From IMG/VR virus record IMGVR_UViG_3300028027_000128, positions 1 to 35,835 of that record: a DNA stretch of 35,835 nt. The stretch is one strand, 5' to 3'. The notes beneath the pieces were generated by a model, which did no database searches, had not been told where the DNA came from, and worked only from the letters and a program-made list of their open reading frames with translations. The translations under genes and the position numbers were made by a program. Origin of the DNA: a virus. This document shows, piece after piece, positions 19,790-25,521 of this stretch; within the stretch, counting starts at the first letter, position 1, and every line of letters starts with the position of its first letter.

Positions 19790-21370
19790 TTACCCTAAGA
19801 CCCATGACACATCTTCGATCGTTCCATTACCTAAATCTATTTGATAAGGATTAGCCATACCACTTGGCATTGATGGATCTGTAGGCAATGCAGTGCGAAT
19901 AATACCACCAAGAGTTGCTCTGCTTAAATCTACACTTTGTTGAAAGAATTTCATTGCAGTATCTCTTACAAACAATCCCATTCCCAACGCCATTACTAAG
20001 TCATCATTATATCCATTTTGAGATTGTGCTTTACCATTCATCCAAATGAATACACGCAATTCTTCTAACAAACGTTTTGAATGAAAGGTGAATTGTCGTT
20101 CTCGAATATACGCCTCCATTTTGGAGATAACAAGTGGTCTTGTCTTAGCTGATGTAGTAAATCCAGGAACTGTTTGTTCACTGTCCATTTTAGCCATCCA
20201 TTTATCCATTTGCATCTCACCATAAGCACGTGGTGAGTAATATGTGTTAGGGTATCCTTTTTCTATTATTGTATTGATAACATCCCACCCAATATTAGCA
20301 TTCTCTACTACAAGTAAAGCATTGTTGTACTCAGTAGCAACAGATACCAACATATTTCCATAAGTACGGGTATCCACTTGTGATTTGTACTCAGCCACTT
20401 GTTCAAGTGATACAGCATCGATAACGTGAAATGCTGAATAGTCCGCACCGTCACCGCGAGCAACGTCAGCGCACACAACATACTGCTTACTATAATCAGG
20501 ATAAGCCCAAATCCAAAAATCCCCACCCATAAAGCGGCGCTCAATAGGATCGGTGATAAAAGTTTCTTCATAAAATGATAATATATCAGGTTCAATAACT
20601 GAATTTCCAGATCCTAAGAAGTCACAATCATACTCTTGAGCAAATTCACGAGACGACATATTTGCACGCTCTGTTTCTTCCCACTTTTCATCTCTATCAG
20701 GGTGTAAATCCCATTTTAATTTAATTGCTTTAAATTCGTTCTTTCCTATTTCAGCATCGGTATACATTCTATGAAACCAGTTACCTACACCATTTGGAGA
20801 TGATAATGCTATAATTCCTCCACCCGTTGCAATGGTTGGTTTAATACTTGTATAAATTCTATCAATACCTTCAATGAAAGCAGCCTCATCTACAATAAGT
20901 AACGAAACGGCGTACGATCTACCTGCATCTGATGCAGCTGATGTAGCAACAATTTGAGAGTTATTGGCTAGTTTTAGTGATAATTTATTATCTGATATTG
21001 GTTTTATGTTACCTTTTAACCAAGAAGGTAATGAATTGTACATAAATTGTACCTTCTCTACCATTCCTTTAGCTGTTTCTTGTTTTGTTGCAATACACAA
21101 CACAGTTTTATCCTTTTGGAACAACATTGTCCATAATGCAAAACCAGCTGATAGTGTTGATATACCTAACTGTCTTGATTTATTTATAATACTAAATCTA
21201 TTATTTCTAAGATCATTTAATACGTTCTCTTGAAAGGGATATAAATGAAATAATACTCTACCTTTTACAGGGTGAGTAATGTAGCAGTATTTTCTAAAGA
21301 AGTGTACAGGATCGGTAGCACATTTGATGTATTCCGCCTTGATTATTTCTTTAATATTCGCTTGACTCAT
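19790..21370 (-). CDS. 17: Terminase large subunit (gp17-like)
   Basis: A 526-residue packaging motor with ATPase and nuclease halves. ATPase: a shifted Walker A NKSRQLGIST at 63-72 (Lys at the start of the loop rather than before Ser/Thr), Walker B SLLIVDEAAF at 156-165 with catalytic Glu162, and coupling motif LSSPNG at 189-194. Nuclease (RNase H-like): acidic residues Asp302 in CADVARGDGADYSAF, Glu356 in VVENANIG, and Asp456/457 in YNDDLVMALG. T4 gp17 is 610 residues. The N-terminus must include ATDPVHFFRKYCYI, so the ATG at 21370 is used, only three bases from an upstream ATATTTATA box. No small terminase gene is seen next to it. Confidence 0.94.
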   Translation of the reverse strand: MSQANIKEIIKAEYIKCATDPVHFFRKYCYITHPVKGRVLFHLYPFQENVLNDLRNNRFSIINKSRQLGISTLSAGFALWTMLFQKDKTVLCIATKQETAKGMVEKVQFMYNSLPSWLKGNIKPISDNKLSLKLANNSQIVATSAASDAGRSYAVSLLIVDEAAFIEGIDRIYTSIKPTIATGGGIIALSSPNGVGNWFHRMYTDAEIGKNEFKAIKLKWDLHPDRDEKWEETERANMSSREFAQEYDCDFLGSGNSVIEPDILSFYEETFITDPIERRFMGGDFWIWAYPDYSKQYVVCADVARGDGADYSAFHVIDAVSLEQVAEYKSQVDTRTYGNMLVSVATEYNNALLVVENANIGWDVINTIIEKGYPNTYYSPRAYGEMQMDKWMAKMDSEQTVPGFTTSAKTRPLVISKMEAYIRERQFTFHSKRLLEELRVFIWMNGKAQSQNGYNDDLVMALGMGLFVRDTAMKFFQQSVDLSRATLGGIIRTALPTDPSMPSGMANPYQIDLGNGTIEDVSWVLG

Positions 21371-23139: not shown

Positions 23140-23148
23140 TATAAATAT
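23140..23148 (-). promoter_or_regulatory. ATATTTATA box before the tagged winged-helix gene
   Basis: The minus-strand sequence ATATTTATA lies 26 bases before the ATG at 23113 and overlaps the last base of the kinase gene. Its presence argues against the upstream in-frame starts. Confidence 0.45.
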
Positions 23149-23666
23149 TAAATATTTTGTAAAATTGTAGCAATACGTTGCTCTGTTGTACCTTCCACAG
23201 TAATTAATTTAGATGGTGAAAATTCAGCTAATGATAATTTAATTACTTCATCTATTTTAGCTCTATATTCTAAATCAGTAGTTCTAACACCATTATCTTC
23301 CATCTCAACGCCATTTGGACTAACGTAAACTACTAAATCATATCTGTTACGTAATGTCATAGCAGCTTCAACAAATGAACGCTTATCAAACTGATCAATT
23401 GATTGAGCACCTAATGTAAATGCACAAACATCCCATATTGTTCTATCTGTTAATACATTTTCACGTAATAATTCACTAGCACGTTCTGCTAAGAATACAA
23501 ACTGACCAGCTAATGTAGAATCAGTATTCAATGGAATACCCAAATCACGTAAATACTTGCTACGCTCAGTAGCTACATAATAGTCTTTAAATTGTTCTAA
23601 TTCAGACATTGCTTTTACTAATGTAGTTTTACCTACAGACATTGTACCTGCTAATCCTATTCTCAT
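23148..23666 (-). CDS. NadR-like P-loop kinase / ATPase (172 aa)
   Basis: A 172-residue P-loop protein of the AAA_28/NadR-kinase type, a group acting on nucleosides or nucleotides. Walker A is GTMSVGKTT at 7-15. Later segments fit a kinase LID and substrate site: ATERSKYLRDLGIP, then LTDRTIWDVCAFT around 92-104, and DLVVYVSPNGVE with DNGVRTTDLEYR near 115-140. It lies just after a small gene (ATGA overlap). With the HAD nucleotidase and nucleotidyltransferase further right it suggests a minor nucleotide/NAD-related theme. The substrate cannot be told; NMN-ribose kinase or deoxynucleotide kinase are both possible. Confidence 0.72.
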   Translation of the reverse strand: MRIGLAGTMSVGKTTLVKAMSELEQFKDYYVATERSKYLRDLGIPLNTDSTLAGQFVFLAERASELLRENVLTDRTIWDVCAFTLGAQSIDQFDKRSFVEAAMTLRNRYDLVVYVSPNGVEMEDNGVRTTDLEYRAKIDEVIKLSLAEFSPSKLITVEGTTEQRIATILQNI

Positions 23667-23872
23667 TTGTTTCTTTCGTTTATTTTTTTCATTTGACGAG
23701 CACTACGTCTATCATCCTTAGCTTGTTTAGCTACTTTATTCCAATTTTTAGGTTTATCAGCACCATTCTTATACTTGATTTCGACACTAATAGGTCCATT
23801 TCTGAACTTATCAGTATCGAATGTCCAAGTCTCAGTAGTGTCTTCGTGTTCGTATACTCGTGTAAATTTCAT
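23663..23872 (-). CDS. Small hypothetical protein (69 aa)
   Basis: A 69-residue protein: an N-terminal beta part (RVYEHEDTTETWTFDTDKF, ISVEIKYKNG) and a very basic C-terminal helix (KQAKDDRRSARQMKKINERN). Its stop overlaps the ATG of the kinase gene (ATGA), which supports translation. No family recognised; the basic tail could bind nucleic acid. Confidence 0.6.
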   Translation of the reverse strand: MKFTRVYEHEDTTETWTFDTDKFRNGPISVEIKYKNGADKPKNWNKVAKQAKDDRRSARQMKKINERNK

Positions 23873-23899: not shown

Positions 23900-24136
23900 C
23901 TATACTCGAGCTCCTGTAGATTTAGCAGCAGCTGTTTTGTAGAATGGTACACCATTAACATCTTTCTTTCTATCTTCCCATTGATCTTTAGTGTATTTAA
24001 AACCAAATAACCAATATTCAGCAGCGCGTTTGTTGCCTTGAGGAATATAAGCTGGTCCTTCCCAACAATGCATCTTACCCATCCATGAGTAGATGATTGA
24101 ACCATCTTTTGTTCTAATTTGTTTTGTTTCTGCCAT
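23900..24136 (-). CDS. Small conserved phage protein with HCWEGPAYIPQGN motif (78 aa)
   Basis: A 78-residue protein with the order IRTKDGSIIYSWMGKMHCWEGPAYIP, here split as DGSIIYSWMGKMHC then WEGPAYIPQGNKRAAEYWLF. This is the D-G-x-HRxDGPA-like repeat style found in small phage proteins of unknown function. It starts three bases after the FAD dehydrogenase gene. A second reading of the same DNA at 23869-24105 in another frame lacks these motifs and is discarded. Function unknown. Confidence 0.66.
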   Translation of the reverse strand: MAETKQIRTKDGSIIYSWMGKMHCWEGPAYIPQGNKRAAEYWLFGFKYTKDQWEDRKKDVNGVPFYKTAAAKSTGARV

Positions 24137-24139
24137 ATA

Positions 24140-25441
24140 TTATTTTATTAAAGATTCTGCAACATAAATTCCATGAGCACCACTAACTGTAATACCACGA
24201 GCTGATAGAGCATCACCTACAAAGTGTACATTAGGATATTCTGTTAATGATAAGTCTGTATAGTTAACTAATGGTTCAGGTGATAAGTACTTTACTTCAG
24301 GCACATACATTCCCCAATCATTACCAAATTTAAATATATTATTCATATTATCAATAAAATTAACAATATAAGCTAGATATTCACCGTAAGCTTCAGCTAA
24401 TGGTACTAAAGTATCTATTGGATAGGATGTTACTGTAGTACCTTCTGATGTTAGTCCTGGAGTACGAGTACGGTTAGGTGAATAGTATAATCCTTTTCCA
24501 TTAATTTGTAATTTAGATACTGCGTCTCTGCACCACTTAAATGGATCTTCAATACCCTTAATTTCCATCAAGATACCAAAGTTAGTCATATCATTTCTAA
24601 ATTCCTCACCCTTCTTAGCATGACCATTATAGCTTAAATCACCATATGTTTCTTCTACTGCTACATAAGCCGCATTATTATTAGTACAGAATGAGCGAAT
24701 AGAAACATTATCGTGTTTTTGATATAACTTAAAATCATAAGATACATCAATCAATTTCTGAAAGTATTTTTGTGGTGCTTCAAATCTAACACCAATTTGT
24801 ACTGCTTTAGGTTCAGTTGGTAATTTGTATTGGTCTGATAGTGCTTGAGCAAAATCAATACCTGATTTACCTACTGCAAATATTAATTCATCATAATTAG
24901 TAAAGGCTCCTAATTCTTCTTTGTTATTAGTAGCTGTTATATAATTTTCCTTAAAATTAATACTAGTAACCTCAAAGTTCCAAACAAATGTAACACCTTT
25001 ATCTAATAAATATTGATACCAATTTTTAGCAATCTCATGCAAATAGTTTGAACCGATGTGCCACACAAGCGACATACGTAAGTCGAAATATGGTTTAATA
25101 AAGTCAGGTTCTTGTTTAGGATCAGAACATGAAATATCTTCTGGTTTAGGGTGAAAACGAGTAAAATTAGCTACTACTTCATTCATCAATTCCATAGCTT
25201 TAATTTCACCACAATACTTAGACAATTGTCCACCTTGTACTGTTGATACTACTAATTTACCATCTGACCAACCACCAGCACCTAACATGCCAGTCATTAC
25301 CTCTTCAGGTAAGCGGTTGATTGGGTCGTTACCCTTATCTAAAATAGTGATCAACTCACCAGGGTAACCATTATCTACTAATTTGGTAGCGGCATTAATA
25401 CCTGCTACTCCTGCTCCAACAATTAAAATTTTCTTTTCCAT
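24140..25441 (-). CDS. FAD-dependent dehydrogenase of the COG2509 type
   Basis: A 433-residue flavoprotein. The dinucleotide-binding fold starts at once: ILIVGAGVAGINAA with GxGxxG at 9-14, followed by an acidic strand end ILDKGND. The signature GAGGWSDGKLVVS at 54-66 is characteristic of the uncharacterised COG2509 FAD-dependent dehydrogenases (GGAGxxSDGKL). A C-terminal FAD-contact motif VHFVGDALSARGITVSGAHG lies near 408-427. The full set of FAD motifs is present, so the enzyme is likely active; its substrate is unknown for the whole family. It has its own variant box 15 bases upstream. Such a redox gene is unusual in a phage structural region; codon and base use look like its neighbours. 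Confidence 0.82.
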   Translation of the reverse strand: MEKKILIVGAGVAGINAATKLVDNGYPGELITILDKGNDPINRLPEEVMTGMLGAGGWSDGKLVVSTVQGGQLSKYCGEIKAMELMNEVVANFTRFHPKPEDISCSDPKQEPDFIKPYFDLRMSLVWHIGSNYLHEIAKNWYQYLLDKGVTFVWNFEVTSINFKENYITATNNKEELGAFTNYDELIFAVGKSGIDFAQALSDQYKLPTEPKAVQIGVRFEAPQKYFQKLIDVSYDFKLYQKHDNVSIRSFCTNNNAAYVAVEETYGDLSYNGHAKKGEEFRNDMTNFGILMEIKGIEDPFKWCRDAVSKLQINGKGLYYSPNRTRTPGLTSEGTTVTSYPIDTLVPLAEAYGEYLAYIVNFIDNMNNIFKFGNDWGMYVPEVKYLSPEPLVNYTDLSLTEYPNVHFVGDALSARGITVSGAHGIYVAESLIK

Positions 25442-25456
25442 AAGTTAAATTAAACA

Positions 25457-25465
25457 TGTAAATAT
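25457..25465 (-). promoter_or_regulatory. Variant box ATATTTACA before the FAD dehydrogenase
   Basis: The minus-strand sequence ATATTTACA has one change from the consensus and lies 15 bases before the ATG at 25441. It would give the dehydrogenase-kinase group its own transcript. Inferred. Confidence 0.38.
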
Positions 25466-25496: not shown

Positions 25497-25521
25497 GTGG
25501 CCCACCTTTTGGGTGCGCCAC
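25497..25521 (-). terminator. Hairpin, likely terminator, after the nuclease-like gene
   Basis: On the minus strand GTGGCGCACC and GGTGGGCCAC pair at nine of ten positions around a CAAAA loop. Only a weak T stretch follows at once, but TTTTTTATTATA occurs about 20 bases on. A smaller hairpin (GACAG / CTGTC, 25546-25564) lies just before it. The 129-base gap holds no gene. Confidence 0.5.

Follow-up and report, generated by a model that had tools for sequence, protein, structure and literature searches.

Synteny, conservation and phylogeny show that a gene for a COG2509-type flavoenzyme, carried by a 35.8-kb virus record, is an ancient core gene of a large T4-like phage clade from aquatic habitats, with Immutovirus as its sister group. 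We refer to this whole 35.8-kb stretch of DNA as the window; it also carries T4-like terminase, portal, prohead protease, major capsid protein and PhoH genes. The FAD gene is neither a relic nor an assembly error nor a recent capture. The enzyme may carry out a redox step in the replacement of guanine in phage DNA, a role that we put forward tentatively. The phage gene family had already been annotated; we found no description of its extent, its age or a possible link to guanine modification. The hypothesis of a link between the COG2509-type phage gene and a 7-deazaguanine DNA-modification cluster is new here.

The FAD gene and its protein

The gene is open from ATG to stop without interruption, and its length is far above chance. 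The gene, its motifs and its leader are as follows.

24140..25441, (-) strand: COG2509-type FAD-dependent oxidoreductase gene, 433 aa (open reading frame; phrog_12409, 6e-23; fold match to 3NLC, Z 31.5)
25400..25417, (-) strand: GAGVAG, FAD-binding GxGxxG (residues 9-14); G9 and G11 invariant in phages, Fletchervirus and cells
25253..25282, (-) strand: GAGGWSDGKL (residues 54-63); G54, G56, S59, D60 and K62 invariant
24191..24217, (-) strand: GDALSARGI (residues 409-417); G409 and D410 invariant
25457..25464, (-) strand: TATTTACA, one mismatch from the late-promoter-like box TATTTATA (sequence)
25497..25521, (-) strand: predicted hairpin in the FAD leader (fold z-score -1.7, weak)
33537, 27951, 23140, 21374, 19778, 17867, 11005 and 6767: intergenic copies of TATTTATA, coding strand

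Only Pyr_redox_2 passed in a Pfam search with the window protein, and the PHROGs match, phrog_12409, is named 'dehydrogenase'. As a single sequence the protein gave no match in the PDB. A profile of FAD proteins, which contained one cellular row, was then used in hmmsearch against the PDB, and the best match was 3NLC (VP0956, COG2509; 2.3e-18). A first AlphaFold model, built from phage sequences alone, had a pLDDT of 76 and matched 3NLC with Z 21.2. With cellular homologues in the alignment the pLDDT was 89.6, and the model matched 3NLC with Z 31.5 and an rmsd of 3.0 Å over 382 of the 433 residues. The second-best fold family, HI0933/aminoacetone-oxidase, reached Z 19.4-19.8 over about 230 residues, and membership in it was rejected on this difference. 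The profile and fold matches agree with the first-pass annotation, which had called the protein a COG2509-type flavoprotein.

An alignment of phage, Fletchervirus and cellular rows contained 34 invariant residues, including K62, H128, R219, E221, Y235, K238, R249, F251, C252, N254, E263, N272-G273-H274, Y379, E382, K384 and G409-D410. The motifs FC.N, NGH and Y..E.K, as well as GxGxxG, SDGK and the C-terminal GD, are common to all three groups, with one exception: Fletchervirus has N in place of the final G of GxGxxG. The enzyme is predicted to bind FAD. The Pfam family FAD-depend_C (PF21688) matched cellular copies (L098, L150); no match was obtained in the window protein at E<=0.01 or in Fletchervirus gp8 at E<=0.001. 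The missing PF21688 match, together with the absence of a cysteine-rich insert found in Bacillota copies, indicates a divergent COG2509-type protein and no typical member; by profile and modelled fold, its identity is firm. COG2509 is widespread in bacteria and its structure has been solved. Our literature search on COG2509 or VP0956 found nothing on function, and we know of no cellular COG2509 protein that modifies DNA. The neighbourhoods of cellular COG2509 genes gave no conserved partner as a functional hint (best 9 of 75 loci, positions mixed).

Comparison with six close relatives gave a dN/dS of 0.18-0.24, indicating that the gene is under purifying selection. It was uninterrupted in 155 of 157 relatives, loci that had been picked by similarity, which favours intact copies. 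With all three motifs present as well, the earlier claim that the gene is intact and not a relic stands.

The FAD gene of two phages, G287 (155 kb) and G291 (97 kb), is split into two free-standing ORFs (L473 2767-5105; L474, (-) strand). The split point lies at residues 173/183, in a variable loop, in both phages, and inserted genes are the cause. One insert matched homing endonucleases (phrog_314, NUMOD3); the other is GIY-YIG-like by eye, with no family match, and an acetyltransferase comes after it. T4-related phages are known to contain genes that homing endonucleases have split. An intron or intein was rejected as the cause, as no Rfam intron was found and both halves are free-standing ORFs. 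All invariant residues are kept across the two halves, suggesting that the two-piece enzyme still works.

The first-pass annotation had also placed the gene in a phage late region, with a box-like element of its own. Its neighbours, the terminase, portal, prohead protease and major capsid protein genes, bear out the first point, and TATTTACA is present as the element. On the coding strand, TATTTATA occurs nine times in the window, and eight of the nine copies fall in the 2% of the sequence that is intergenic. Judging from this placement, it is likely a late-promoter element; read as its reverse complement, it gives T4's TATAAATA. The box was not enriched ahead of the FAD gene in relatives (13 of 146, about 11 expected). 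The leader hairpin is possibly a terminator of the upstream genes; its z-score is weak, and the leader matched no Rfam family of structured RNA.

Synteny, distribution and age

The order FAD gene, 78-aa protein, P-loop kinase, terminase (and portal) was found in most of the 157 loci examined, and among the 155 aquatic loci nearly all kept it where the contig reaches. In the window, the remaining members of this block are the following.

23900..24136, (-) strand: 78-aa protein; adjoins the FAD gene in most relatives
23663..23872, (-) strand: 69-aa protein between the FAD gene and the kinase; 44 matching ORFs among 80 loci
23148..23666, (-) strand: P-loop AAA_28 kinase, 172 aa, phrog_2107 'thymidylate kinase'; near the FAD gene in nearly all loci
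19790..21370, (-) strand: terminase large subunit, end of the syntenic block (phrog_2, 1e-51; synteny)

The 78-aa protein had no Pfam or PHROG match.

A scan of IMG/VR with the window FAD protein identified at least 534 stretches that encode close relatives. A second scan added more copies with 62-80% identity, and many of these belong to phages whose terminase is quite different. Among GenBank phages, the COG2509-type gene was found in Campylobacter Fletchervirus (38 Campylobacter phage records), the only other phage lineage found with such an enzyme. The remaining GenBank phage matches are gut 'Bacteriophage sp.' records; all three that were examined (L083, L084, L085) carry bacterial housekeeping genes, indicating pieces of chromosome, and were rejected as phage copies. 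Phage copies had earlier been described as unexpected, a view that phrog_12409, the Campylobacter records, the annotated phage protein A0A6J5M0P4 and the more than 500 IMG/VR stretches contradict.

In a tree with cellular COG2509 proteins, the aquatic phage copies formed one clade on a very long stem, and a well-supported branch parted the cellular copies from this clade. The Fletchervirus row was on a very long branch, and its placement is unsure. The single clade on a long stem and the fixed synteny indicate long phage residence and not recent capture, an alternative that the first-pass annotation had wished to see decided by phylogeny. The SDGKL signature is kept, and the gene is present in related phages. 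Conservation of the FAD protein exceeded that of the terminase in 82 of 110 loci and that of the kinase in 135 of 147, a ranking that is favourably biased because the loci were chosen by FAD similarity. Within that sample, the comparisons show it to be among the best-conserved proteins of its neighbourhood.

The designation 'auxiliary metabolic gene' holds in part. The gene does encode a phage redox-type flavoenzyme; the recent host capture that the term implies is contradicted by the 25-31% identity to the nearest cellular copies found, the uniform synteny and the single clade.

The 7-deazaguanine cluster and the QueF contrast

The 35.8-kb window contains no que or dpd genes, and their presence in this phage is inferred from near-complete relatives. 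QueC was found in 7 of 7 records of at least 133 kb in a first set and in 5 of 6 aquatic records of at least 120 kb in a second; taken together, 12 of the 13 aquatic records of that size found through the FAD gene have it. DpdA, the Immutovirus 'DNA guanine transglycosylase', has a homologue that adjoins QueC in all seven records of the first set and was present in 5 of 5 further FAD-found records tested. The order QueD-DpdA-QueC-QueE-FolE is conserved in the six genomes compared. A phosphoribosyltransferase gene and a dCTP-deaminase-like gene mostly accompany the que cluster, and a ribonucleotide reductase (RNR) gene is nearby. In the reverse direction, 7 of 9 large records found via DpdA carry the FAD gene, two of them in split form. 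From this gene content, the phages of the FAD clade are predicted to place a 7-deazaguanine in their DNA through a transglycosylase of the DpdA type. The FAD gene itself is among the late structural genes, outside the que/dpd cluster, and is co-inherited with it, in what amounts to a single phylogenetic contrast.

Two other types of modification were considered and rejected. Thymidine or cytosine hypermodification did not fit, as thymidylate-synthase/hydroxymethylase (PF00303) was found in just 1 of 10 relatives. The canonical TGT (PF01702) was found in none of 20 records; the transglycosylase there belongs to the distant DpdA family. In the record of L052, a relative of 179 kb, a Pfam scan detected GTP cyclohydrolase I, QueD and QueC. 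This relative (L174-L182) also carries carbamoyltransferase, nucleotide-sugar enzyme, galactosyltransferase-like and GroEL genes, and possibly these extra genes serve further decoration of DNA or surface.

The DpdA family shared by the aquatic clade, Immutovirus and Firehammervirus is phrog_19058, which we take to correspond to a DpdA subfamily described later. It is listed as 'unknown function'; the DpdA genes lie at L182 17570-18355, L287 6370-7146 and L190 34089-34883. A small P-loop kinase was observed next to or near the phrog_19058 DpdA in several lineages. In Bacillus phage BSTP12, a phrog_761 kinase stands beside a DpdA-like gene. BSTP12_038 (L288 6683-7471) is annotated as NadR; it matches the DpdA family and lies in a FolE-QueD-QueC cluster, and the NadR label is a probable misannotation.

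By terminase, the closest cultured relative of the window is Flavobacterium phage immuto (53%), in which no FAD gene was found. No FAD gene-bearing record tested contained QueF above the cut-off, and the one sub-cut-off match that was checked proved to be the FolE (T-fold) gene. Among the large Immutovirus-like records, 4 of 6 carry a DpdA of the aquatic family and QueF, and have no FAD gene; the other two, G295 and G297, have neither QueF nor the FAD gene, and their DpdA is more distant. The FAD gene was found at none of 80 Immutovirus-like terminase loci in the available flanks; at 37 of these loci the flank upstream of the terminase is longer than 3.5 kb. A terminase tree placed the FAD-positive phages on one side of a single branch and the FAD-negative phages on the other, so the complementarity of QueF and the FAD gene amounts to one evolutionary contrast.

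The kinases of the window, Immutovirus and Firehammervirus have phrog_2107 in common. In Firehammervirus CPt10 the kinase is the next gene after DpdA, and in Immutovirus-like records it is flanked by a formyltransferase and QueF, close to DpdA. In the FAD clade it lies near the FAD gene and not in the dpd cluster. These neighbourhoods form a chain of association from DpdA to the kinase and from the kinase to the FAD gene. The window and Immutovirus kinases are 25% identical, compared with about 60% for QueC and 53% for the terminase, and they may therefore be paralogues. The Streptomyces phages with the kinase had no match to the DpdA of Immutovirus or the aquatic clade.

Possible roles and comparison with known systems

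The co-occurrence of the COG2509 gene with a guanine-replacement gene set suggests that the enzyme may help make the modified base. In the pathway we propose, FolE, QueD, QueE and QueC, with the DpdA-type transglycosylase, would put a 7-deazaguanine into phage DNA. The FAD enzyme would perform a two-electron redox step, with the 7-substituent or the modified nucleotide as its target, filling the position that QueF holds in the sister clade, and the P-loop kinase would act in the same pathway. An active COG2509-fold enzyme with this task, in QueF's place and with the kinase as partner, is possible and is our working proposal; we infer its substrate, which way the redox step would run and that the DNA is modified at all. 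Co-inheritance with the modification cluster, presence complementary to QueF and a kinase of a DpdA-associated family speak for it. In addition, Fletchervirus, the other lineage with the enzyme, also substitutes guanine, its guanosine being replaced by deoxyinosine (Crippen 2019, as cited in PMC8713573). Against it stand the single QueF/FAD contrast, the place of the FAD gene outside the que/dpd cluster, the two Immutovirus-like records with neither gene, the absence of QueC from Fletchervirus, the same active-site residues in cellular COG2509 and the low identity of the kinase to that of Immutovirus. A more specific version is doubtful: that the enzyme replaces QueF or acts after preQ0, yielding an unreported guanine replacement together with a dedicated nucleotide kinase, the kinase being a general partner of the DpdA subfamily.

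Three rival roles were weighed, in the order general redox, guanine nucleotide pool and virion protein. About as probable as our proposal, and not separable from it by sequence data alone, is that the enzyme performs the cellular COG2509 reaction, tuning the NAD(P)H, quinone or flavin state late in infection with no tie to DNA modification. Its active-site residues are identical to those of cellular COG2509, its gene is placed among late genes, and its co-inheritance with dpd/que could be a passive effect, since one clade has both among its core genes. However, the long stem and the 25-31% identity to cells suggest a changed task; a COG2509 copy of this type (E<=1e-20) was found in just 1 of 247 genomes from the phylum of a Prolixibacteraceae genome (Bacteroidota); and the pairing with a kinase of the DpdA-associated family is fixed. 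The genomic context suits DNA base modification at least as much as general redox metabolism.

It appears unlikely that the enzyme instead acts on free guanine nucleotides, for example by reductive removal of the 2-amino group or by removal of dGTP, keeping dG from new DNA while the kinase phosphorylates the replacement. We know of no flavoenzyme that acts in this way, the cellular homologues have the same active site, and identity between the Fletchervirus and aquatic proteins is only about 27%. The kinase is nonetheless of the nucleotide-kinase type; RNR, the dCTP-deaminase-like protein and the phosphoribosyltransferase surround the que cluster; and Fletchervirus gp8 is encoded two genes from dUTPase. 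Such an activity would fit both Fletchervirus and the aquatic clade, lineages that have, or are predicted to have, substituted guanine, as far as PMC8713573 summarises it.

Less probable still is a role in the virion or its assembly, in which the protein would be packaged or would work at the portal/terminase stage, as a thiol oxidase, for instance, or through structural reuse of the fold: the gene lies beside the terminase and portal genes and has its own late-type box in the window, but the catalytic-type residues are all kept, also in the two phages with a split gene. Recent host capture, contamination or assembly error, which the out-of-place look of a phage COG2509 gene and the chromosomal origin of several gut 'Bacteriophage sp.' matches might bring to mind, is refuted by more than 150 syntenic phage loci and by a single aquatic phage clade far from the cellular copies.

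COG2509 would gain its first assigned function if the proposed guanine role is true. T4-like phages of freshwater and the sea would then carry an undescribed guanine chemistry, which bears on restriction evasion by abundant phages. If the link fails, the gene should still be regarded as an ancient core gene of phages and no longer as a recent auxiliary metabolic gene. The small phage gene sets, the fixed FAD-kinase pair and the predicted modification cluster offer a concrete place to seek the function of COG2509.

Among known systems, cellular COG2509 (VP0956, 3NLC) has the whole-length fold and the GxGxxG, SDGK and GD motifs in common with the window protein, at 25-31% identity. Bacillota members have a CPI..C..C..C cysteine-rich insert and a QR.GDL..GRR stretch, both of which the window protein lacks. 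The uncultured Caudovirales phage protein A0A6J5M0P4, annotated 'COG2509', is close to the window protein (TM 0.92, 46% identity); it is known from a named database entry that gives no function. Fletchervirus gp8, annotated 'NAD(FAD)-utilizing dehydrogenase' (phrog_12409), belongs to the same family and has nearly all invariant residues, at 27% identity to the window protein. Its gene occupies a different place in the genome, near the clamp loader as well as dUTPase. As no QueC was found in Fletchervirus, its FAD enzyme cannot act on phage-made preQ0. In Firehammervirus, guanosine is reported to be replaced by deazaguanosine (as summarised in PMC8713573), and high dADG was reported in Campylobacter phages in which no DpdA was then known (PMC6884629). 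Immutovirus has a 7-deazaguanine system with DpdA, formyltransferase, kinase and QueF, and shares the DpdA and kinase PHROGs with the FAD clade. It differs in having QueF and no FAD gene, and its kinase gene is part of the dpd cluster and not a neighbour of the terminase.
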